Assembly: GCA_006384855.1 (NCBI GenBank)
Contig: VCJN01001387.1
Location: 186,001-250,000, forward strand
Length of the DNA stretch: 64,000 nucleotides
Reading direction: 5' to 3'
From: Tetraselmis striata
Taxonomy: Eukaryota; Chlorophyta; Chlorodendrophyceae; Chlorodendrales; Chlorodendraceae
Numbering within the stretch: position 1 is the first letter of the stretch; each line of letters opens with the position of its first letter. Under the pieces are notes generated by a model that worked only from the letters and a program-made list of their open reading frames with translations, was not told where the DNA came from and did no database searches. Below, piece by piece: positions 3,795 to 63,500 of the stretch. The position numbers and the translations under genes are program-made.

Positions 3795-4266
3795 GGCGCC
3801 GCACTCCTTGCTATTTTACTTACCCTTACGCTGAAGGCTATGGCTATGACCGCGGTAAATCTCCGGCCCCGTCGACACCGAGAGGAACACCGAGACGCCG
3901 CGGCCGAACCGATGTGCCGCCGAAACGCCGCCGCCGCGTGGGCGAGCTTCTACCTGCCCAGGGGATCGGCGACAAGAGCAGACCGTGTTTTTACGTTGCT
4001 GTGAAACACTTAAGGACGGTGATACTTCTATCTTTATGTCTTGTGGGTGGCGGAGAGTTGCGTATGGTGCTGCACTGCAGCGTGGGGGAGAGTTATTCTG
4101 GTAAATGGTGGATGTGGTCGGCCGCCGCAATCTGGTGGACGCGCAGGCCGACGGCGCAGGGACGACGGCCCCGCCGCCCCGCCCGGCGGCGCGGGCGGGT
4201 GAATGCAGTACAGTAATAATGAACTTTTTGGTTACAGGGAGAGCGTCCGGAGTACAGTAATAGAGT
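3795..4266. other. PNO1 upstream region and left flank of the transposon
   Basis: No gene is seen. The 3' half holds a short repeated block (4219-4252) that recurs near 40,550, and two nearby copies of agtacagtaat. The PNO1 promoter must lie here or inside the transposon edge. Confidence 0.4.
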
Positions 4267-4341
4267 AGGAGTTCCACAATAAGGTGCCCGTACAGAATTA
4301 CGGTGTTAAGCATTCGTACCCGTATTTTCGCTACGGAGAAC
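4267..4341 (+). repeat. Left terminal inverted repeat, outer part
   Basis: It begins aggagttccacaataagg and matches the reverse complement of 9748-9822 with one mismatch, near 4296. It stops abruptly at 4341 where the nested insertion begins. Confidence 0.93.
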
Positions 4342-4821
4342 GTAGGTTCGCGTAGGTACTCGTTTCTGAAGACCGAAAACGGGTCTCAAATCCGAGATGT
4401 ATAGCTGGCAACTCTTTTTGGCGACGTGGCACGCGCTACGTGCGTAATATTAGCACGTGACCGCTCGAGCTCCTCCCTCATCATCCCGCCGCCAGCCCCA
4501 TCCCTGCCCGCGACACACAAGACGAGGCACCTGAACGCCACCATATGCCTACGTTAGCGCGCTGCTACCGCGGTATGCGCGTGATGGTGCCGGCCGGTGT
4601 GTTCGATTGGCATCGGTGGGGCGGGATGGGTTGGCGAGACGGGTGGTCACGTGGGCTCTGAGTTTTCATCAAATGACGTTATATTTGACTGTATCAACCG
4701 GATACTAATCACAATTGGCGCTCGTTTCGGTAGTTGCATCTCAGGATTGTGACCCCGCTATACACAGCTTAAACCCCGGAAGGATTTCATTTAGCGAGTA
4801 CCCGGGGAACCGGTGTGATAC
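4342..4821. mobile_element. Nested insertion of about 480 bp inside the left inverted repeat
   Basis: In the right repeat the sequence gagaac runs straight into cgctccgcc. In the left repeat these two blocks are 480 bp apart, so this stretch was inserted. The dinucleotide ac occurs at both edges (4340-4341 and 4820-4821) and could be a 2-bp target duplication. The insertion has weak, imperfect inverted ends (ggttcg...ggtactcg against cgagtacc...gaacc). It has no convincing coding potential and may be a MITE-like element. It now forms the region just upstream of the nuclease gene. Confidence 0.75.
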
Positions 4822-4863
4822 CGCTCCGCCGCAGCCCAGGGCCAGCGCACCGCGCCCGCGCAG
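4822..4863 (+). repeat. Left terminal inverted repeat, inner part
   Basis: It is identical over 42 bases to the reverse complement of 9706-9747, completing the 117-bp repeat beyond the nested insertion. Weaker similarity continues inward for some tens of bases on both sides. Confidence 0.9.
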
Positions 4864-4942
4864 TTGCATTGCTGACCGCCGTCGGCACATCGTCATTCCA
4901 ACCCTAACCGCACCTGACCGCTCCGTGTTGGCCACCCACGAG

Positions 4943-7368
4943 ATGGGCATCCCAGGTCTCCTTACCCTCGTTGACCCCATATGCGAGAAAACCAACTTGT
5001 ATGCACTTGCCCGCGGGAGGCGTTTAGGCATTGACGGTCACGTTTGGATGCACCAGTTGGGCTACCACCACGCGCAATCCATTGTCTTGGACAAGGACTA
5101 CGAGCCGCTCGCCAAGCACTTCCTGCAGCAAACACAGTCTGTTCTCGGGCGAGGGGTAGACCTTTTGTTTGTCTTCGATGGAGCACCCACGCCCGCGAAG
5201 CGGTCTACAGACTCCGCGCGTCAGGTTAGGCGTGCGAAAGCGTATGCCGCAGTTCAGTACGATGGCGCTGAAGCCGACCCTAAGATGCTGCGCGCCGCTG
5301 TTTCCTTGGGATGGCCGGCTGTCGTGGCAGTGTTATCACATCTCCGCCGCGCAGGGATCCCCTACATCGTCGCGCCCTTTGAGGCAGACGCGCAGCTGTC
5401 TTTGCTTGCGCGCGACGGGAAGATATGGGATGCAGTCACAATCGACAGCGACTTCATCATCCACGGCTTGCCCAGGGTTTTTTTTAAGGTCAACTGGAGG
5501 TCAGGCCGTTGTCTTCTGTACTCCAAGGCGGTGCTGCAGGATCCTGACCGGTGGCCAGAACTGCCATCCAAGTTTAAGCCCCCGCAGCAGCTTTTACCCA
5601 TCGTGAAGGATGTTGGGCTGCCTGCTATGTTGTGCTTCGGGCTGCTGGACGGCTGTGATTATGGTACCAAGATAAGGGGTGTCGGTGTGGTGAAAGCCGC
5701 GGAAATCCTGGAGGATGTGGTTAAGCAGCATGGTGCTGTTGCGCTCCAAGATGTCAGAGGAGCAGTGACTCTGATGGCGCAGGAAGTTCTAAAGCACCTC
5801 AACAGGCGGGGAGGTAACCCCCCCCCCCCCCCCCCTTCCCAAAATGGTAACTCCAGTGCCGACTTCACATTGTGGAGTGCTATTTTTTTCTATTCTTTTT
5901 TCTTGCCAAGTGCACTTTTAACAATTCTGCATCACTATTCTGCATGCTGTGTGCTGTGCAGATTTTGATGCCGATGCATTGATACCTACTGCACTTAACG
6001 CCATTGATGTATTTCAGCACGCGCTGGCGTATAATCCCGAAACGCGCAAAGTGGAGACTGTCGACCATATGCCAATCAACGAGGCCATCACGCGCTGGCC
6101 CTTCCTCGGCTTCAACATCAATGATTGTGATGCGGAGGGCAGGGCATTGGGCCTCATCACCCCTGCAGGGGCACCTCAGGAGCTACCTCATGTGAGCAGT
6201 ATTCGCACTCCAGCCATTGCATGGCAGCTGACAGATGATATGGTCTTGGGCCCAGAGCTGCGGGAGCCTTTTCCATTACCAAATGAACATGGTGAGTGGC
6301 CGGCTGACTTCCGCCCGACCGTTGCACAACTGCGGCACTGGTGCCGTACCAGGCATGGAATGCCCTTATTCTCTGGGGCATCTCGCTCCGACCTAGTGAG
6401 GCGGGTGAAGGAGCGTCAATTGGTGGAGAAAGAAATGCAGGATAAGGAAGAGCGGGTGCTATTTCGTGACCCGCATGGCCGCAGTCTCCAGGATCATATT
6501 CTGTCCAGTCACCCTGATCAGGCATGGCATTTCGCTGAGGCTACTGATGGCGAACGAGAGGAGCTGCTGCCCACAGAGGGCTGGGTGACTGGCATTCAAC
6601 AGATTGGGCGCGATGCGCCCACTGTGGATCAGACGCTTTTGCTGTCGCACTGGGAGCACAGATTACACCTGCAAAATGGTGGTACGCGTACAATCCTGGA
6701 CGACGCCTTCTCCCGCGTTGCGGAGATGCAGCACCTGCCTCACTTTGCGTTTCACCCCAATGAGAACGCAACCATGCCTCGCACTCGGCATGGAGGGAGT
6801 CAGAGGTCGGTCTTCTTTTTCAGAGTTTTCAGCCCCAGCCAGCCAGCGTATGGAGACAACCTACCACGTGTGGGTGGAGTGCAGCGTGTCAGCACTTCCA
6901 GGCTTGCGCCCTTTCATTTCCCGCATCCTGCGTTGTGGCTGCACATGCCCTCTGAGATCAAGTGCAGATTGTGTGCATTTGCTCTTGCTTATGGTGGTCA
7001 TTCTGAACCTGCCGCGCCCATGGGGTGAGCCACCCTGCACCTCTTTGCGATGCGCATGGCTGAATCCTGGTAACGGCGACACCTACGACGTCACCACCCC
7101 CTTGCCTTTCATTCCATTCATGCGCACCAGCTTCACTCCTCAGCGCCTCAGGGACGCAAGTGGGATGGCGAGGCGGGTGCTGCCCGTTTCAGACAATGCA
7201 GGGTGGCGCTACAAGTTCAACCATGTGCCACTCGCGGACCGCGATGCCGTTCAACATGGCCGCAGCACTGCAGCACGTGTGGCTGCCAGGGAGGCGCTAT
7301 GGGAGGAGATGCAGCGTGCCCTAAACGGAGACCGATGTGCAGCCGATGTTGCGTGGCGTGGGCTGTGA
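4943..7368 (+). CDS. Transposon-encoded FEN1/EXO1-type 5' nuclease fused to SAP motif and SWIM zinc finger
   Basis: The protein starts at MGIPGLL, the catalytic N-terminus typical of FEN1/EXO1/XPG nucleases. Its acidic metal ligands are all present: D31 (GRRLGID), D79 (FVFDG), E147 and D149 (APFEADAQL), D168 and D170 (TIDSD), and D239 (LLDGCDYGTKIRG, leading into the helix-two-turn-helix). The EADAQL form is closest to EXO1. After a GT-AG intron (5814-5961, phase 1) comes a SAP-like DNA-binding motif (PTVAQLRHWCRTRHG, near residue 410). Toward the C-terminus is a SWIM zinc finger, CxC-x8-CxH, in CGCTCPLRSSADCVH at about 6,933-6,977. Total length is about 760 residues. The frame changes once between about 6,680 and 6,835, through either a further intron or a frameshift. 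The gene ends at 7368, with TGTAA at 7504. Such nucleases cut 5' flaps and ends; a role in transposon excision or repair is inference. Confidence 0.85.
5814..5961 (+). other. Intron 1 of the FEN-SAP-SWIM gene with a C tract
   Basis: A GT-AG intron that begins almost at once with a run of C and ends tgctgtgcag. It restores frame exactly (g|at gives Asp), which shows the transposon gene is spliced like host genes. Confidence 0.85.
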
Positions 7369-7564
7369 GCTTGATGTTGTGGCTGCAAACACGTACTTGT
7401 GTTGTGTGCATGCAATGCAGGGCAGAGCAACATATGGTAGGCCACATCATAGGCCGGGTGGGACAGGGGCCCTCACCCATACCCTTCCACAGGGTGGGGG
7501 ATATGTAATCATCATCCACATTATTTTACGTGTGAGACGGTTCAGAAATAGATATTGCATTACA

Positions 7565-9619
7565 TTAGAAGTCTGCCTCTGCAGCCTCTTGCTCTGCATC
7601 CACCGCACTAGTGGATGCTGAGCTGCAAAGAGGGCGCTGCAGGTTGCACAGATGTCCTACGACATCAAAGGCCTTCTCTATCATATCTACAGAGTATAGA
7701 GACAGTTTCTTACCAGAGAAGGCCCTCCAGTTATGCACGCGGCTGAAATGCCGCTCTACATGGATGCGCAGGTTAGACTTCTCTCCGTTGCCCTGCCTCT
7801 CATCCGCTGTGTAGTGACGCTGCCCCTGCCAACGCCGCGCTGGTGCAACAATGCATGCACCGCGCGCAACAACCAACGCCTCGCACTGGTCAAACCCCTT
7901 GTCTGCTGGGATGCAGTCACCCCTCTGCAGGATCTGCAGCCAGTGGGAAACGCGTAATATGTCTGTGTCTGAGATGCGGCCAGGATATGCTTGAGAGGTA
8001 CCGCAATAGGCACCCACAGGGAGGACTGCAGCCAACAGCTTGGCTGTGTGGGCTGTTTTGTAATCGGAGTAACATGTCCGAGCTGCTTTCCTGCTGCATG
8101 GCTGCTGCAACCTGAGCTCTGTGCAGTCCAGCACAAACCGGACCAACGCGCCGTACGCCTCCCTCCACTCAGGATGCACCCGGTCCAACATATCCGCCGT
8201 GCTGGGGACGGGGAACTCCGCTTTGAAAAACTGATCAAGGTAAGAAATCCATGTCGGGAAAATGCGGGTGAGGCACGACACCTTGATTCCTGACCACGCA
8301 TTGATGACGCGGGTCCCCAGCCCAGTGCGTAGCTTCACCATAGTGACCAGCAAAGCATTCTGCGTAGTGAAGGTCCGCTGTTCCGGTTTCCCGACTGACT
8401 CGCGTTGTGCGGTGCCATTAGCCTCCGCCTCCATGCGCTGCATGCTCTGCTTGCCGTTCCAGTAGCGCAGCCGGTCCGCCACTCCCTCGCAGTTCACCCA
8501 TTCAAAGAATTTCTGCAGAGATTGGGCAGTTGGAAACCCAACAATGTGATTGATGCAAGCATTCCAGGCAGAACCTTCCTTCATCACATTCTCCCATGTG
8601 AGCCGGTCCACCAGTCCATCCAGCATGCCGTCAATCTCCGCATTTTTCCTCTCCAGCTCCTTAGCCAGGTTAGCTATCACATTGCCACATGTGTGCTGAG
8701 CAGCGCCAAGCTGCGCCTGCACGTGCTCAAGCTGCTCCATCAGCACCTCCTTCTCCCTCGCCGCCTGCCCAAGCTTCTCCCGCAGCCTCTCCGCCTCTAT
8801 TTTTGCTGTTGAGTAAAGATTCTTGTTGTCCGCCAATTGTTCCTCCAACAGCTTAATTCTCGACCGCATGTGGGAAACCACCAGGGAGTCCATCTCTGAT
8901 GCACCTGACCGACGGCGAGGAGCAGGCGGTTGCTGCATGGGCTCATTTAAACCGCCGCGTGGCAGCGGCGAGCCCCAACGAGCCGGGGCACTAGGCGGCA
9001 GCCTAGGTGAGGGGGGGATGTTCTCCTGCTCCCTAATGCTCGGAGACCTTGGCCTCACTCTAGAGAGGACAGAGGACGTAGCTGCTCGCTGTTGGCTGTT
9101 TGTGCTTATGCTCCTGAGCGGTGACCGAAACGCTGCCCGCGGACCTGCCGGCGTCGACGGCTGCACACCAGTGGAGCCTACTGCGGCAGCCATGCCAGCT
9201 CCACGGGAGAGAGGGCGCTGACGCACGGGGGTAGCAGCGCTGACGGGCGGCGGCCGCGGCGCTGCCCGTCGCGCGCAGTTTTGGTCAACTGCATCCTTGA
9301 ACGGCAGAGGGGTTGCACCGGGCTTCAACGCCTTACCCACCGCGCCACCTTTTCTCTTGATGTCCCTTTTGTCGCTGTCCGCGAAGTGGGAGGTGTGTAC
9401 CTTGTAGCTCCTAGGGTTCTTGAGCACCTTGTCGCGGTAAGTTGGGTCATTGAAGACGAGGATGTCGACGACCTTCCGGTAGTGGTCTGGGTCACGCGCG
9501 AGCGTGTCCATGCCATGCGCATTCTTGGTGACCGGTTTGCGACAGTTCGGGTGGTTGCAGACGCAGTATTCCCCGCGTGCATCTTTCGGGGTGGGTAGCG
9601 GAGTGTTTTGCGTCGACAT
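7565..9619 (-). CDS. Transposase: THAP-like finger, coiled coil, DDE_Tnp_4 catalytic domain
   Basis: A single-exon gene of 684 residues from ATG at 9619. The N-terminus resembles a THAP DNA-binding domain: CVCNHPNC near residue 20, then HTSHF and the distal LKPGATPLPF, though the third metal-binding Cys of the usual CSxHF is a His here. A proline/arginine-rich linker and a strong coiled coil (SRIKLLEEQLADNKNLYSTA, about residues 250-320) follow. The C-terminal third is a DDE_Tnp_4 (IS5-like) domain: first Asp in FVLDCTELRL, YSDYKTAHTAK, second region GRISDTDIL and ADKGF, and final Glu in LRIHVERHFSR. An ATG farther upstream at 9805 lies in the terminal repeat and is less likely. The reading frame is intact. 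It should act in the nucleus on the 117-bp ends. Its stop lies about 200 bp from that of the nuclease gene. Confidence 0.92.
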   Translation of the reverse strand: MSTQNTPLPTPKDARGEYCVCNHPNCRKPVTKNAHGMDTLARDPDHYRKVVDILVFNDPTYRDKVLKNPRSYKVHTSHFADSDKRDIKRKGGAVGKALKPGATPLPFKDAVDQNCARRAAPRPPPVSAATPVRQRPLSRGAGMAAAVGSTGVQPSTPAGPRAAFRSPLRSISTNSQQRAATSSVLSRVRPRSPSIREQENIPPSPRLPPSAPARWGSPLPRGGLNEPMQQPPAPRRRSGASEMDSLVVSHMRSRIKLLEEQLADNKNLYSTAKIEAERLREKLGQAAREKEVLMEQLEHVQAQLGAAQHTCGNVIANLAKELERKNAEIDGMLDGLVDRLTWENVMKEGSAWNACINHIVGFPTAQSLQKFFEWVNCEGVADRLRYWNGKQSMQRMEAEANGTAQRESVGKPEQRTFTTQNALLVTMVKLRTGLGTRVINAWSGIKVSCLTRIFPTWISYLDQFFKAEFPVPSTADMLDRVHPEWREAYGALVRFVLDCTELRLQQPCSRKAARTCYSDYKTAHTAKLLAAVLPVGAYCGTSQAYPGRISDTDILRVSHWLQILQRGDCIPADKGFDQCEALVVARGACIVAPARRWQGQRHYTADERQGNGEKSNLRIHVERHFSRVHNWRAFSGKKLSLYSVDMIEKAFDVVGHLCNLQRPLCSSASTSAVDAEQEAAEADF

Positions 9620-9705
9620 GATGTGGGTATGAGAGGTAGGAGATGACGATGTGGTGACTGGCGACAAGATGTCTGAGCAATGTGGGAGCGACCGAGTCAA
9701 CAATT

Positions 9706-9822
9706 CTGCGCGGGCGCGGTGCGCTGGCCCTGGGCTGCGGCGGAGCGGTTCTCCGTAGCGAAAATACGGGTACGAATGCTTAACACCGTAATTATGTACG
9801 GGCACCTTATTGTGGAACTCCT
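9706..9822 (-). repeat. Right terminal inverted repeat (117 bp, uninterrupted)
   Basis: The reverse complement of this block equals 4267-4341 followed directly by 4822-4863, with a single mismatch. It starts 87 bp upstream of the transposase ATG, so it probably also holds promoter sequence. Confidence 0.93.
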
Positions 9823-9932
9823 CTATACGGCAAACATGCGATCGTGTCTGGTTCTGCCAAAAAATATTGAGGCTGTTTTACCCAAAAGAAGCGCATATTT
9901 ATGGCTACCAGTGGGGAGGCTCAAGCGAGAAA

Positions 9933-9976
<44 letters not shown>
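9933..9976. repeat. Poly-G tract of about 44 bases
   Basis: The longest pure homopolymer in the window. It marks the 3' edge of the decayed reverse-transcriptase element. Long open frames across it are artefacts encoding poly-Gly or poly-Pro. Confidence 0.9.
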
Positions 9977-9979
9977 CGG

Positions 9980-10850
9980 GGAGGAGGAGGAGGAGCCTAC
10001 ATGCAATGCGGAAACGGAAACGGGAGGGAGCTGCCGAAGGCAGCAAGCTGGAAGATGGCAGGCCAGCTGGTGGTGGCTGTCCCAAGTAGCTCCCCGGCCG
10101 GGAGCGCAAGGCTCGGACGCGGCCTTGGCCAGTGCGAGGAGCTTCACCTCGGGGGCGCGGAACTCGCTGCGCTGTAGGTCGCCGATGAGCCGCAAGTGAG
10201 GACCGACTTGGGTGGGCTCCCATACTCCCTTGTTGGGGTTGCGCAGCAGACCGAGGTGGTCCAGCAGAATTTCCAGCCGGCCGGGCAGCTCATCCAGGGA
10301 TGCTTCGCGGGAGTCCGCAAAGAAAAGAAAGTCGTCCATGTAGGGTAGGTGCCGCTCGCCCTGCCAGCGAGTGTTGCGCATGATGCAGCGAGTACGCTTG
10401 GACGGGGCCGTGGGAGGTGAAGATGGGTCGCGCCGCTTCAGGGGCGTCCGCAGATAGTCCGTTAAAGCCGCTGCCACCTTGCAGATGTAGTACGACTAGC
10501 CGGTCTTGCCAGCAGATCGATAGGCACGTTAGTCGACACAACTCCCCCGCCCGGTAGCAGTTCACGGTGAAGTCGCGGTCCTCCTCCCGAATCCCGAGGG
10601 CGTAGTAGCCATCGGTCAGGTCCGTCGAAACGAACAGTCGCATGCGCGCGCCAAGTGCCACAGGTGCTTGAGCGTCTCATAGGACATCTTGAGGGTCTTG
10701 CACCACTTGTTTAGCTCCCGTAGGACGATGTTGAGGCGCCACTTGTTGGTGCCGGGCTTGGGGACTAGAAACATCCCGGATACATACCCACTTGTCTCAG
10801 CGTCCTCGCTCCCACGCGCCGATAGCCTCGAAGCAAGGTAGTTCCGTAGC
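9980..10850 (-). pseudogene. Reverse transcriptase remnant (YMDD)
   Basis: Minus-strand fragments of one reverse transcriptase occur in order. FLVPKPGTNKWRLNIVLREL is at about 10,780-10,720, followed by LFVSTDLTDGYYALGIREED (first catalytic Asp, about 10,640-10,570). LPYMDDFLFFADS with the catalytic DD is at about 10,350-10,310, then GVWEPTQVGPHLRLIGDLQ. The motifs fall in different frames, with at least two frame changes (near 10,680 and 10,490), so the gene is dead. The YMDD/GVWEPTQ style is common in algal retroelements; I cannot assign it to Ty3, DIRS or another order. The 3' end is cut off by the poly-G tract. Confidence 0.8.
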
Positions 10851-54581: not shown

Positions 54582-57500
54582 TCATGGCTGGTCAAAGAAG
54601 CTGATGTGCCTCTTTGCATTTGCGGCCTGTGTTTCTTCGTCGTCTTCTCCCTCCTTGTGCAAGATCGGCTTGACGGTGCGTTCCCCGGGGCGATTGTCCG
54701 CGACAGCGCTCGAGGGGTCTGCATCGCCACCTCGCGCCACCGGTGCCGCACCCTCCGCCTCGGAGCGGGTGCCCTCCTCCCCAGCAGTCGCGCCACCCTC
54801 AGCGCCGCCCTCAGCCTGACTGGTCACCACCACGCGCGGCGCCTCGAGAGCGGCCAGCTCCGTGCTCAGCGGCTCCTCGTCCTCGCCAGGGTACAGCAGC
54901 GCAAACTCCTCCGGCCGGGGAAACTCGTCCGGCGGGAACAGGTTGGGGCTGATGCGGATGGCCTCGCTCCGCAGCAGCGCGCGCTGCTGGTCCGTGGCGT
55001 GGAACGCGTACCACTCCATGACCTTGGCGACCTTGTGGGCGTCGCCGGCAAGGAGGGCCATGATGCGCTGGAGCGGGGGAGGCGGCAGCCCCTCTTGGTA
55101 CTTCTCCAGTGGCTCAAACCCCTCCTCCGCCTCCGCCTCAGCCACCTCCGCCTCCGTCCCACTCTGACCGGCGCGCTCGGCTCCCTCCTCGCTGCCCGCA
55201 TTGCTGCCTGCATCCAGGGCCTTGCCCTCCCCATCCCCCGCCTGAGAGCCCTTCTCCCCGTCCCCGCCCTCGTCCTCGTCCTCGTCATCCACCAGCCCGC
55301 CCTGCCGCTTCCACCACAGCTCCGTGGAGTCCTCCTCACTCAGCGCAGACTCGCCGCCACAGCCGCCGCCGCTTCCGCCGCTGCTGCTGTTGCCCGCCGA
55401 CTCCAGCTTGAGCGAGTCACTGTCGTTGTGCGCACCGCTCAAGTCGCCCTCGTCGTCGCTGTGGGGGCCCCCGCTGCCGCTGGATGAGCCGCCGCTCGAC
55501 AAGCTCCCGTCGTCAAACGACTCCTCCCACGCGATCGGGATCAGACGCACGCCAGGTTCCACGTCCCTCGAGGCCGGCAGCCGCTCCATCCACAGCGGGT
55601 TGGCGCCCATGGCGGAGGCCGCGATCGACGCGATGGCCGCCGGCGCCGCTTGCAGCGACCAGCGGAGCAGCGTGAGCGACAAGTGCTCCAGGTACCGCAG
55701 CCCCTCCTCTTCCTCCACCGTCTGCTTGGAGGCCCACTCCACTAGCTGCCGAGCGAGCTCTGGCACCAGCACTGTACCCAAGTTGGCAGCGATCCGCGCA
55801 GCAACAGCGCTCGGTTCTGGCTCCGGCTCTGGCTCCGGTTCTTCCAGGCCTTCCTTGCCCAGCTTGGCGTCTGAGGGGTCAACCCAGGCGCTGTCACCCT
55901 TTTCGAGCTGCGCAGCAGACTCCTCGTCTGCCAATCTGCGCGACCGGCGAACCCCCGACACGGACCGCCACGAGCGCGAGAGGCTGCGGCCAATCTTGAC
56001 CACCATTGCCTTGGGGCTGCGCACCGGCGAGGCGGCGTCCTCCGCCGCCTCGCCGCCGTCGCCCTCCGCTTCACTGCCGGATCCGTGCTCCGCGGGGATG
56101 CCGCCCTCCTGGTCAGCCTCCGCACCAATGCTGATCGTCAGCTGCGATGTGTCGGTCACGGACGACTTGCGTGACTTGTGCGTCCTGGCCTTGCCGCCGC
56201 TCCTGTCCTCCTCCTTTTCCTCCTCCGATGACGACGACGAGAAGTCCGGCGCAATGAAGCTGCGCACCTGGTCGATCCACGCGTCCGGGTCCCCTTTCCC
56301 GTCGGCGTTGTTGCTTGCCGAGACCGCGTAGCGCCGGCCGCTGCCCTCCCCCGGCACCTTGGGCATCTTGCGCTGACTGACGGTGCGAAGCCCGGTCGCC
56401 TCGTCCGGCTTGCTCCACACAAGCGCGTCCCCGATGCGTCCGTACCAAGGCCGCGGCCCCTCAAACGCCTCGCCCAGCGGGCCGGCCGGCGGGCCCTCCG
56501 CGTCCTCGGCGGCTGTGGCCGTGCGGGCGTGCCTCTTGCGCCGCGCCTTGCGGTCCACCTTGGGCCGCTCCCGCTTTGGCGGGGCGCGGCTTGTGCCGCC
56601 GTCGCCAACGCCGCCGCCCTCATGGTCATCCTCCTCGGCGAGCCCGAGCAGCAGCGCTTTGGCCTTGTTCGTCGGCATTGTCTCCATGGGCTTCAGCACC
56701 ACGCGCGCAGACGTCGAGCGCTTGGAGCGGGCGCTCACGCGGCTCACCGCCGCGCTGGCCATCAGCACCGGCGTGAGTGTTGTCTCGCGCACCGAGGGCG
56801 ACGCGGGCTTGGGCGCCTCAGCAGGCGCCGGCCCCGGGCCCGCACTCCCAACGCGCTTCTGCTGCTTCAGCACCAGCGACGCGACGTCCGAGACGTCCAG
56901 CCCGCCCACAGTGCCGGGCTTGACGGACATCAGGCGCCGTCTGGTGGCCCCGCGGCTGACGGCGCCGGTGCGTGGCTTGGAGGGCGCGCCTGCGGTTCCC
57001 AGCTCCTTGAAGCTCTTTGCCGCCACAACACGCTTCATGACGCGCTCCATCTTAGACTTGCTGCGCAGGATTCGGGCGCTGCGGTAGGGGGACGCGCCCG
57101 GCTGCTCCCCGGCATTCAATGCGGCCGACACCAGGTTGGCCAGCGGCTCAAACACGACGACCGCATTGGGGTCGCCCCACCGGTACGACCCCTCTACCGT
57201 CAGCCCGCGCGCTGAGATCGGGTCCACCAGGTCGCGCCCGAAGGCCGACATGCGCTCCGGCTCCGGTGGCGGCGTCGGGGGAGGCGGAGGCGGCGGCACC
57301 GGCGGCGGCCGCGGCATCCACGCCGCCCACGCCAGATTGTAGCCGTCCAGCACCGTCACGTTGCCGTAGCGCCCATTGGGCCACAGCGGCGCCCGCCAGC
57401 GCCACGACTTGTAGCGGCCTCGGCGGAGCCGCGCCGCCTCCGAGCGCATCGGTTCCAGCCGGCGGCGCAGCGCGGCCTGACACGCCGGCCGCCTGGAAAA

Positions 57501-60500
57501 CAGCCAGACGGCCACCTGCAGCGCTGCACAGACGGCGGCGGCAACGATGGCCCCCGCCTCGACCCAGTCCAGTGCGGACCGTGGCATGCCAAAGTACCCG
57601 CCCGGCACGCTGGCTTCCGTGGCCAGCGCACGCGCATAGGCCACGACGGCCAGGGCAAGCGGGCCGATGGCGCCGAGCGCAGCCGAGGCCGCGAGCCAAG
57701 GCGAAACGGAGGGCGAGTACGGTGCCACCACGCCGGACGCCACCGCAGCGGCCAGGATGACCAGCGCGGAAGCGAGCGACTGCATCGGGGGCGGCATCCA
57801 GGGGCCGCCGAGCGCCGTCAGGGCCACCAGCACGGCGAGCTCACCCACAGTCGCCAGCTCCCACGCCCACGCCTCCGGGCGGTACACCTCCAGCGCAAAG
57901 CCAAGCATGGCGCGCATGCGTGCGAGTCGCGCGACGGCCGCAGACGCCGGGGCGCTGAGCAGCGCCCGGATGCTGGTGCCGCCGGCCTCCGACGGGCAGC
58001 TGGCACCGGGCGCTGCCTTCTTCCACGGCCAAACTCGGGCGGTCTTCTTGCCAGTGCCTTCGTCGCCCGGCTCCTCCCCTGCCTCCCCCGGAGTGATGGT
58101 CACCGCCGGCTGCTGCAGGGCGGGGGGGAGAGGCGAGATTGCCACGGTGTCGCTCGCCTCCAAGTCCAGTGCTGCATCCTCCTCGTCTTCCGGGTCAAGC
58201 TGCTGAAGCTGGAGGTAGAGTCCCAGCGCATCCATGTGGGGCGCCCACCGCAGCAGGCGGGCGTGCGAGCACAGCACGCCGGCCAGGCCCGCTGGCAGCC
58301 CGATGACAAACACCAACGCCGTGGCCGCCATCAGCGGCAGCAGCATGGCGATGCCCTCTGCGCCGCACTCCACCGCCGGCTCCGCATCCAGGAGGCGCTG
58401 GCCTCCGGGAGCTTTGTGGCAGCTGAAGTAGCTGAGCGACACGTTGGCCGCCAGTGCAAACGTCCACAGCAGGAAAACCAGCAGCAGCTGGACCGCCCGG
58501 GCGTCATCTGGCAGGATGTGCGTCCGGGCAGGGGAGGGAGCGAGAAGCGATCGCATCAGTACGCGCTCTGCGGTGAAATGCGGCCGGAGAGCAGCCCATA
58601 TGCCAGTGGCATTACCCCTCGAGTGTATCTGTTCATGCCGCAGATGCCGGCCCCACAAAAATGCATGCCATTACGTTGCCAGTGCACGACGACGCACAAG
58701 GCAGCCCTAGCAGGGTGAGATGTGCAGGCTTAGTAGAACGGCTGGTTTATACACATGAGGCACCACACTACTGTTACTTGCCCCTTTGCTTCAAAAGCAT
58801 ATCTGTCGTAGCAAGAAACTGCGAGTGACGCGTTGATTGGATATCGATGTCCCCTTCAGGAGCAAGCATAGCGCTGTTATGCCGGTGATGAGGGCAAAAC
58901 TCGACAGTCCAATAGGATGCATGTCCGGCAATTCGAATAGACGAGAAGAGAAATGGAAATGGAAGTGACTATAAATAGAATAGAATATAATAATAAAATC
59001 TTGATATTTTTTTCTTGAAAGAAAACTGACATAGACATCTCAGTCGTTTTGGGAATTGATTTCGGATAGCACTAAGCACATTCTTTGTATTGATCATTTG
59101 TTCAGGAAAAGTTTACGTTCATTTTTGGAAATTCGATGTACAGGAATGCATGCCGATGCAGAACGATAAAAATTACGTTAATCAAACGCACAACCACACT
59201 ACGGTTATTATTACAGGTAGGTTGTCAGGATCGTATCTGATAGTATCCCTGGATTGTATTCTGATTGGGTACGGTGGCAATCCTTATCATACGGTATACA
59301 AATACATCGCCCGTGTTATATATCCGGGTACGACAGGGAATAATTATAGAGATTATGGCAATAAACGCCAGTAATCACAAATCAGCAGTAATCATCAGCA
59401 CGTATAGCGGTAGACGATAGGTGGATGATCACATAATCCGTAGTAGTGCGTCCAAACAGTTTGTTATGATGGAAATTAGTCAGCAACAACAATAACAGGA
59501 GAATTTACTAGTCGCTACAGGTAGTAGCAGAACATAATAATCGGAAAACACTATACAAGTGGCAAAACACGGCCAGGCACCGCTGTTAAAAACTTTTGCC
59601 ACCTATGCGCTAGTCATTAATATAAGACAGCGCTATGAGTCGGACAATGCGCCCTGGTAAGAGGTGAGAGAGCAGTATGGGATCGCTGCGCGTTGGGACG
59701 ATGACGATACAGTCATTTCCATGCGTAACACCAGAACGCCGTGTTCGCGCTTGGGTGTGAACGCAAGGTCAAGACAGACGTGAGGTATCCATAACACACT
59801 GCCTTTCTGCGTCTCATCTGGCTGGGTGTTGGCCCCATCTCCCCAGCACGTTTGAACCTAGTATATTGCTTCTGTAGTTCCATGAATACAAAACGCCATT
59901 GGAACAGAACTGAAGGGGGCAGGAATTGAGGGGGGGGGAAGGGGGGGGAGGGGGGGGGGGGGGGGGGGGAACTCACCACCGCGCGCATCCGACCCGCCCT
60001 GCACCTCCTCCTCTCCCCTCTCCGCCGGCTGCGCCCCCTCCAGCTCCGGCTCCTTGCCCTCTTTCTCCTCCTTCTTGTCCTGTCCCGCGCGTTCCTCCCT
60101 CCCTGCCGCTGTGCCGTCTTCGGCGGCGGCTTCCTCGCCGGCCGGCTGGCCCTTGCTGGCACGCTTGGCCGCTTTCTTTGCTCGCCGCGCCTCCTGCAGG
60201 CGCCGCCCCATCTTGCGCACGGGGCGCAGGCAGACGGCACCGTAGCGCCTCGCCAGGATGTTGGCGCAGCCCAACAGCAGCACCGCCCAGACCACTGCGG
60301 CGCCGGCGGCGAGCTGCAGCGCGTGCCTGGCGCCGGCACTGAGCTCACTCAGCCCGCAGGACGGCAGCAGCTGGTGTGGGGAGGCCAGCGAAAAGGCGGC
60401 TGCCGCGTCCGCCAGCGGGCGCATTGCGGCTGACCACCCCACATCCAGGGTGGCCACCAGCGCCAGCCTGGCTGCCGCGACCAGGCACAGCCGCAGGGCG

Positions 60501-63500
60501 GCCAGCGTGGGGGCGTCCCCACCCACCGCACGCCACAGCACAGCCGCCGTTACGACAGACGCGAGCAGCGCCGCGGCCCAGCGGCCCAGCGCGTCTGCGG
60601 TGCAGCCTCCCGGCATGCACTGCCGGTCGGCCGAGCGCTCGTAGCCGTCGGCGCAGGAAGAGCACGCAAAGCCGGTGTAGCCAGCCGCGCAGCGCCCAGT
60701 GGCCACCTCATCCGCGCTGCCCAGCTTTTCGCACGCGCCAACGGGGCGGCAGCGGTGCACAATGACCAGCTCCTCCGGCGGCAGATCGTCCAGGATGCCA
60801 GGCTGCGACCAGATGCCGGGGTCCACCCACAGGCCGGCGCGCCCCGGGAGCGGCAGCGGCTGGTTCGTGAGCTCGCAAACAGCGGAGCCGTCGATGGGGC
60901 AGGCCACGCACGTGTCGGTGGTGCCAAAGGTGCCGGGCGCGCAGAGGCAGGCGGAGGGGTGCGTGCTGCCCTTAGGCGCCACCATCAGGGGGTCCGCGCA
61001 CGGGAGGCACGCCGCGCCACCCTCCACCGGCTGGTACGTGTCGTCGGGGCACAGCAGGCAGGCCGTGGCGTCCGCCGCGGCGATGCTGCCCGCGCGGCAC
61101 GGCACGCATGTCGTCGCGTCGATGGCGCCTGCCAGCGTGACGAGGCCCGGCTCGCAGCGGGTGCAGGAGGAGCCGTTGCCGTCCTGGCGGAAGCCCACTG
61201 CGCAGCTGACGTGAACTTCGACGGTCGCCGGTGCCGAGCGCCGCCCACTGGCAGTCACGGCCACCCACTCGAACGAATCCAGCGGTGTGCCACGCGCCAG
61301 GGGCTCCGGCCGGTAGCTCGCGAGAGCGGGCACACCGCGGCCGCCCGCTGACGCGGAGAGCCGCACCTCACCTACAGCGAGCATACCAGGGCAGAGCGCT
61401 GAGTCAATACACAACCGCCAGCACGTGCCCCCCTCCACAGCGGATATCTTTTCAATATCAAATTCCGGGCTGCCACGTGAGGGTCATTCTCAGAACCCGT
61501 GACACTTGGCACAACCGGACGAGGTAGCCACAGTCAAACACAGCCGCAAACTATTCAAATGGAAAACTGCGTGCGATTTCATTCCCGAAGGTAATTGAAA
61601 CCGGAAACTATAATTACCAATTTTGTCAAGGATCGGAAAAGGACCCGACTTTCTTTTCATAATAAACTTTTAATGAGGTTGTCCTTATTGGATTATCAGC
61701 AAGCAAGTCACAACGCTCACATTGTCTCCAACATGGAAAACAGGAACCTCCCCCTGTTGCCTTTCCATAGGAGGAACAGTCAACTGAGCTTTATGAAGTG
61801 CCAAAATTGAGTTCACCAAGTCCTGGATGTCTTTCATATCCTAGATTTTCTGTTGAGCACCATCAGACCCAGGTGTCGTTGGCCGCATGGCAAACAACAA
61901 ATCTGGAGGTGTTTCAGGATTAAATCCATCACATCAAACGGTGTTGTATGCTTAGTACCAAGTGCCCTGATAGAATTATAGGAAAATTCCATCAGTGTTA
62001 ATTGATCAACCCAGTTTGTGCCATCGAAGCAATAAAACACACGAGCCAATTCACAGACAACGGCGTTTCTTCGTTTCTAAGTCAAACGTTGTTGCTTCAA
62101 GGTGTTGATTGGCCACTAGACATCTTTAATTCAGTGCCAAGGAGCGGCCACAAAGTCCGCCAAAAAAGAGGATATAGATCGTGGGTCTCTGTTGGAAATC
62201 AGAACCCATGGTAAACCATGTAGCCTGTGTATTTCCTGCAGGAACAATTAATCAGCTGAGTATTCACCTTTCACAGTTGTAATCGTCGAAACAAAGCGTG
62301 CTTGACGGGTCAGACGATGGCATACGACAACAAACATTGCATCAGAACTTTACTCACAGGTAAATAATTGGTAATGACATCCACCCCCGCCCCACCCGAC
62401 ACACACACACACACACACACACACAGTAGGCGAACTTGTGGACGGATCTCTTCGCCAGTTGCTTGATTGTGGCGGTACAATATTGTACGATATGGTATGT
62501 GAAGGCACGTTATAGCACATCATGGTACGTGGTACGTGGTACGTAACTGTCATGACATGTCACCTATATATTTAATCAAGCTGCTTGGGAGGGGGGGGGG
62601 GGGGGGGGACTAGCAACTATAGAGTGTAGGAGTGATGGATAGGGACTGTATAGCATGGGGTAAATTCCAGCCTAGTAATTAAGGAAAGAATATGCACATT
62701 TCAGGACATTCCCCGTGCAACCAACGTCCTCAACATTGACATGCACAAGGCAAGTGACAGGCAGTATTGGCATCCACGTTATTCGTAGTCAATGTGTGGT
62801 GTCGACAAAACAGGACCAACGCAAGCTGCAGAGGTAGTGGGGCCATGAATGCATACATACAGGGGCGGGCGCATGCACCGCGCACCTGACAGCCAGTCGA
62901 CTTCGCTGGGCGGCGAGCGAGCGTCTTCCCACAGGCGGAGAGTCCCGTGCTCCGGCAGGCGGGTGATGACGTAGTCTGCGATGGCGTCGCCGTCCAGCGT
63001 GGGGTCAAAGTCGGCGAGCAGGCCGAGCACCACCCCGCCGGCGTCGCCGCCGGGCTCGGCTGCCGCCATGCGCGCGCGGACAGTGCTCCGGGCGGAGCAA
63101 ACCATGCGCCCGCCATGGGCGCCGTCGGCGCGGCTGAGCGCCTCCAGGGACGCGGACAGCGCCGCAAGGCCCGCGGCGCTGCTGCTGGACGCCGCTGCGG
63201 CCGCCAGTTCAGCCGCCAGCGGCGCCTCCCACCAGCGTGCTACACCCACGCCCTCAACCACCCTGATCGGTAGGCTGCTCAGGTCCTGCTTCAGGCTGAG
63301 CGCCGCCAGCATCTTTGCCTCCAGGGCGCACACGGGCACCGGGCGCCACGCCCACTCGCCCAAGACCTCGATGACCACGGTGGCGGGTTCCGCGGATTCA
63401 AGCCCGCTGGGCACATGCCGCGCCACCACACGGAAAGACACCTGCCCCTCCTCGCCCACGTTAGAAGAGTCGCGTTGGTAGAGAACCGACGTGGAGTTGA

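Follow-up and report, generated by a model that had tools for sequence, protein, structure and literature searches.

The closest described relatives of the transposon considered here are the ISL2EU elements, which belong to PHIS and are marked by AT target-site duplications (TSDs); in the parts of the 2015 PHIS survey drawn on here, they are about 5 kb long, carry two genes, the second with a YqaJ domain, and have repeats usually starting with GG (PMC4482050). The functions of additional PHIS open reading frames (ORFs) were called still unknown in those parts (PMC4482050), and the Myb-like partner of Harbinger has since been reported, in the portion of a later paper used here, to be needed for transposition (PMC9179366). 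The element analyzed here occupies positions 4262-9824 of a 64,000-nt stretch of the green alga Tetraselmis striata (contig VCJN01001387.1, positions 186,001 to 250,000; the whole stretch is referred to as the window). It is a 5.56-kb DNA transposon, flanked by AT on its left (4260-4261) and on its right (9825-9826), and its two genes are convergent, with a nuclease on the plus strand and a transposase on the minus strand. We read it as an ISL2EU-like transposon with an EXO1-type accessory nuclease, which perhaps resects the donor break and thereby leads repair to copy the element anew, an interpretation that we regard as evenly balanced between right and wrong.

With ISL2EU as described in those parts of the survey, the window element shares a DDE_Tnp_4 transposase with a helix-turn-helix (HTH) and perhaps a THAP-like N-terminus, the AT TSD, the two-gene layout with a nuclease as the second protein, and the length of about 5 kb; the ISL2EU families covered there are all from animals, whereas this element resides in a green alga (PMC4482050). 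The differences concern the second protein, which is of the EXO1/XPG type instead of YqaJ, and the ends, which start with AG where those of ISL2EU usually start with GG. A first, sequence-only reading of the window had related the element to the ISL2EU type and proposed that a different nuclease had taken the place of YqaJ. The AT duplication and DDE_Tnp_4 bear out the relation, and on its sequence the element is placed in the DDE_Tnp_4 (PHIS) group near ISL2EU by this duplication; because a YqaJ second ORF and a GG start were both tested and neither was found, we call it ISL2EU-like and not ISL2EU. In line with that proposal, the second ORF matches XPG-type profiles and no YqaJ was found with the element: the genome's two listed YqaJ matches (C2605 and C613) have no listed transposase on their contigs. 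A coexisting YqaJ version of the element is thus unsupported. The two YqaJ proteins (L078 and L079, frames of 456 and 357 aa) have similar neighboring frames and, as a guess, belong to another, perhaps virus-like, element.

Other lineages are more distant. PIF/Harbinger elements have a TWA TSD and a Myb/SANT second ORF, whereas the window element has the 2-bp AT, and its second protein, the nuclease, gave no Myb match in the profile search. In the available portions of the Kolobok description, KolobokE, KolobokD, KolobokP and KolobokH carry an accessory lambda-exonuclease-like nuclease (the KolobokE enzyme), a DnaQ or His-Me nuclease, or a RecQ helicase, and the two genes of KolobokP are, as here, on opposite strands (PMC9587614). 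Both the transposase superfamily and the nuclease folds of these lineages are different from those of the window element. Kolobok TSDs are TTAA, and the nuclease of AcademX, from the Academ superfamily, is of the XPG type. AcademX is likewise said, in the part of its description used here, to be a DDE lineage encoding a nuclease, with a TSD of 3-4 bp (PMC10045372) versus the 2-bp AT found here, and the transposase of the window element matches DDE_Tnp_4. Within the open-access literature, with broader topics covered in part and subscription papers and Repbase outside the scope, no paper was found that pairs an XPG or flap endonuclease with a transposase. Accessory nucleases and helicases are already known in several transposon lineages, going by the portions of that work drawn on here (PMC9587614); an EXO1-type one in an ISL2EU-like element would be a new variation on this theme.

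Copies and families in the host genome

The 224-Mb genome of T. striata (2,903 contigs) was scanned for further copies by their ends and by their proteins. With 40 of 283 candidates scored in the end search, the copy count is a lower bound. The 75-nt end was found paired at 10 or more further places, 0.8 to 9.8 kb apart, and as a single end at C2470 and C427. Counting the window, the ends alone recovered at least 11 two-ended elements, each of the 11 matching both genes, so that further copies with both genes between the same ends, which the sequence-only reading had proposed to look for, do exist. At the sequence level, this recurrence is taken to show that in this genome the nuclease is a regular component of the element, and not stray cargo.

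Adding six elements recovered through proteins gives 17 two-ended elements, and the genome contains three or more families that carry both genes. The second family (C1590, C1508 and C1293) has repeats of 93-96 nt that are 94-98% matched, and the third (C1259, C2683 and C2011) has repeats of about 80 nt that are 75-77% matched; the presence of both genes in these two families is partly due to selection, because they were found through proteins. Copies of the third family are 98.7-99.0% identical across 5.95 kb and their flanks share only pieces of 24-46 nt, which indicates recent movement. Not every frame in these copies is intact, as the C2011 transposase has one stop and in C1259 the second catalytic D is changed to E. 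A fourth, more distant nuclease (37%) was observed at L031 (C1619), where a 313-aa open frame has G at the second metal ligand and no listed transposase nearby; it could be a solo gene or what is left of a decayed family.

To count loci, 84 nuclease matches and 62 of 66 transposase matches (four short ones, derived from the terminal repeat, were dropped) were clustered into 55 and 35 loci, respectively. At 28 of the 55 nuclease loci a listed transposase lies within 12 kb, and all 28 pairs are convergent.

The sequence AT|AG...CT|AT is found at both ends of 16 of the 17 two-ended elements, four of which (the window copy, C1445, C1267 and C1590) show small changes just inside one end; C2218, with AC at its right end, is the sole exception. 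All three families start with AG if AT is the duplication. The C1259 element is inserted in a repeat whose uninterrupted relatives (C1963, C1911 and C1418) read TATAT, and the filled site, TAT-element-ATAT, represents a 2-bp gain in comparison with it; two more fetched copies of this repeat, C861 and C845, differ at the site. Insertion at A|T without duplication, with ends TAG...CTA, would look the same in sequence. In the search for an empty site of the C2683 insertion, only the two flanks of C2683 itself were returned. The repeat hit by the C1259 insertion was also seen in tandem at a spacing of 190 nt (L074, C1911:120808-121348).

Ends and genes of the window element

The window copy was described by the sequence-only reading as two convergent genes, an intact transposase and a nuclease, enclosed by 117-bp inverted repeats. 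The repeats and the convergence were recovered, with the qualification that the left repeat is interrupted by a 478-nt insertion, and of the two genes only the transposase frame is whole. The left TSD (AT, 4260..4261) and the right one (9825..9826) were assigned from the flank table of the copies. The outer part of the left repeat (4262..4341, plus strand) begins with AG and has three additional nt near its tip relative to other copies; positions 4267-4341 are 99% complementary to 9748-9822. The inner part (4820..4863, plus strand) is 100% complementary to 9706-9749, within the right repeat (9706..9824, minus strand) as delimited by terminal-repeat comparison. A chance occurrence of the inverted repeat was rejected. 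The insertion that splits the left repeat (4342..4819) derives from another repeat, with AC at both junctions and ends reading GGTTCGCGTAGGTACTCG and GGTTCCCCGGGTACTCG in inverted order. A 39-nt stretch near its start is found 15 more times among the matches listed (at 100% in 14 cases and 95% in one), and one recurrence, C747:32299-32337, lies 13 nt outside another transposon copy.

The transposase (7565..9619, minus strand) is a 684-aa open frame with no stop and with D498, D573 and E622. Its DDE_Tnp_4 domain (residues 497-659, 7643..8131, minus strand) matched the profile at 1.5e-25, above the cut-off, in agreement with that half of the earlier THAP/DDE_Tnp_4 label. The THAP half is weakly supported: a THAP-like N-terminal domain (residues 16-106, 9302..9574, minus strand) is suggested by structural evidence only. 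For the catalytic part, the model was of low confidence. HTH_Tnp_4 was matched in all six aligned transposase members (best 7.7e-9), and the window transposase itself scores 21.1 bits, below the cut-off of 27. The sequence search of solved structures with the transposase gave nothing below an E value of 0.5. The profile search for distant relatives returned seven proteins, three named Tetraselmis and none named from animals; Tetstr1 is the JGI name of three relatives at 78-98% identity.

The nuclease gene is composed of exon 1 (4943..5813), a GT...AG intron (5814..5961) and exon 2 (5962..7366), all on the plus strand. The intron is missing from the MMETSP protein P0002, which is identical to the spliced nuclease of the C2226 copy from residue 61 onward. 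Exon 1 encodes XPG_N, XPG_I and the seven metal ligands (D31, D79, E147, D149, D168, D170 and D239), confirmed as originally listed, and exon 2 encodes an EXO1-like helical part followed by SAP-like and SWIM-like parts. The FEN1/EXO1 label first given to the protein can be narrowed, as the XPG_N and XPG_I matches place it in the XPG family and the core is closest to EXO1 by sequence and structure, the EXO1 fold having been obtained on the relative P0004. The SAP motif and the SWIM finger (CxC-x8-CxH) of that reading fared less well: there is a weak SAP-like two-helix region (6316..6430, plus strand) and a weak SWIM-like CxC-x7-CxH (6934..6993, plus strand). In the window copy the latter does not share the reading frame of exon 2, because four additional nt near 6817-6822 break the frame; among eight further family-1 copies in the alignment, seven cover this stretch without them and the remaining one, C1445, is deleted across it. 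A complete 757-aa nuclease frame is found in C2226, where the transposase has one stop.

Origin and proposed role of the nuclease

The position of the nuclease relative to host enzymes was assessed with an unrooted tree of 17 sequences and 281 columns, in which the rows of human EXO1, XPG and the host EXO1 are partial and which is without FEN1 and GEN1. The EXO1 proteins (human, Coemansia and host), together with two long-branched XPGs, are separated with 98% support from the group of transposon nucleases and their relatives, and P0010, P0008 and P0009 are intermediate. One nuclease relative, at 52% identity, is from Prasinocladus malaysianus. A tight grouping with the host EXO1, which according to the sequence-only reading would mark a single captured gene, is not seen in this tree, EXO1 and XPG being included. 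Moreover, the host EXO1 matches human EXO1 at 46% of 48 sites and the transposon nuclease at 25% of 96 sites, and on both grounds a recent capture of the host EXO1 was rejected. The transposon nuclease has 22% identity to EXO1 of the RAD2/XPG family, and differs from it in the SAP-like and SWIM-like tail, in being transposon-borne and in lying outside the EXO1 clade. A viral origin gained no support: two scans of viral contigs yielded 84 and 8 pattern matches, and tblastn found no relative among them. The identity of both genes declines from the second family to the third, and between families the nuclease is conserved at least as much as the transposase; nonsynonymous divergence (dN) between families was 0.22-0.54, with synonymous divergence (dS) saturated.

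EXO1 takes back 5' ends at breaks and cuts 5' flaps, and the YqaJ of animal ISL2EU elements is a 5'-to-3' enzyme of the lambda-exonuclease kind. In the proposed mechanism, the transposase would excise the element at AT after binding its long inverted repeats. The nuclease, kept near the ends by its DNA-binding tail, would act on the donor break, either resecting its 5' strands or clearing 5' flaps. Resection would steer repair to sister-chromatid copying, restoring the element at the donor site, with a net gain in copy number as the possible outcome. YqaJ and the EXO1-type nuclease would then be unrelated enzymes in one role, for which their shared 5'-to-3' polarity is the best argument. A bolder version, in which the transposase requires the EXO1-type nuclease, each excision is thereby turned into a copy, and ISL2EU-like elements have taken up unrelated 5'-to-3' nucleases at one and the same position, is put forward only tentatively, as something we consider rather less than likely. 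Two unrelated nucleases of plausibly the same polarity in the same accessory place would point to end processing, and a shared role would become testable by a swap.

Several observations weigh against this interpretation. There is no listed transposase at 27 of the 55 nuclease loci and no listed nuclease at 7 of the 35 transposase loci, with only 60 of 128 transposase candidates scored, and many of the solo matches contain stops. Both frames are whole in none of the nine family-1 copies translated. The SAP and SWIM assignments, on which the tail depends, are weak, and the relatives P0003-P0010 were compared as proteins, which by themselves speak neither for nor against a transposase neighbor. 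Comparisons inside families, which involve few changes, give dN/dS values of 0.21-0.85, alike for transposase and nuclease, thus recent selection on either gene is not demonstrated. Finally, four internal-deletion junctions were found in comparison with C2226 (four copies compared; one in C2631, two in C1445 and one in C747), with 4, 10 and 2 shared nt and one 2-nt insertion, as expected of failed gap repair, and four are too few as proof; C1398 showed a duplication and no deletion junction. The C2631 copy (C2631:43899-44681) has been reduced by deletion to 783 nt but keeps both ends, the AT on each side and the starts of both genes, and is possibly a non-autonomous form.

The nuclease could instead process the element's own ends: the transposase would cut the 3' ends only, and the XPG-type enzyme would make the second cut, as TnsA does for Tn7, or remove 5' flaps after strand transfer. 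It is established that XPG-family enzymes cut 5' flaps, all metal ligands are present, the SAP/SWIM-like tail would suit DNA targeting, and the conservation of the nuclease between families is in line with such a role. However, an EXO1-type core favors resection, and a PHIS transposase can work without a partner, since Spy has one ORF in the parts of the survey used (PMC4482050) and native Spy transposases are reported to be active (PMC11304231); we consider this role possible and on balance unlikely. That the nuclease is passenger cargo, from a host EXO1 captured once and with no role in transposition, would agree with its closeness to EXO1 in sequence and structure and with the broken nuclease frames in many copies, but the tree split and the identities given above largely refute recent capture, and both genes recur in every two-ended element found by ends and in several families, which makes cargo very improbable. 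Equally hard to credit is a nuclease for rivalry or control, for instance one cutting other elements or limiting copy number: its pairing with one transposase lineage and the parallel divergence of the two genes suit a shared pathway better, and EXO1-type enzymes are not, to our knowledge, known to choose a target sequence, so that we attach very little probability to it.

Other features of the window

Adjoining the element, frames at 9905-10661 (minus strand) contain a YMDD stretch, which we take to be a reverse-transcriptase motif, and other words of reverse-transcriptase appearance, with a G-rich run at about 9933-9976. Farther along, a 1,357-aa open frame at 54585-58655 (minus strand) has no Pfam match at E values up to 0.01, and an open frame at 59861-61435 (minus strand) matches Ephrin_rec_like at 8.3e-7.
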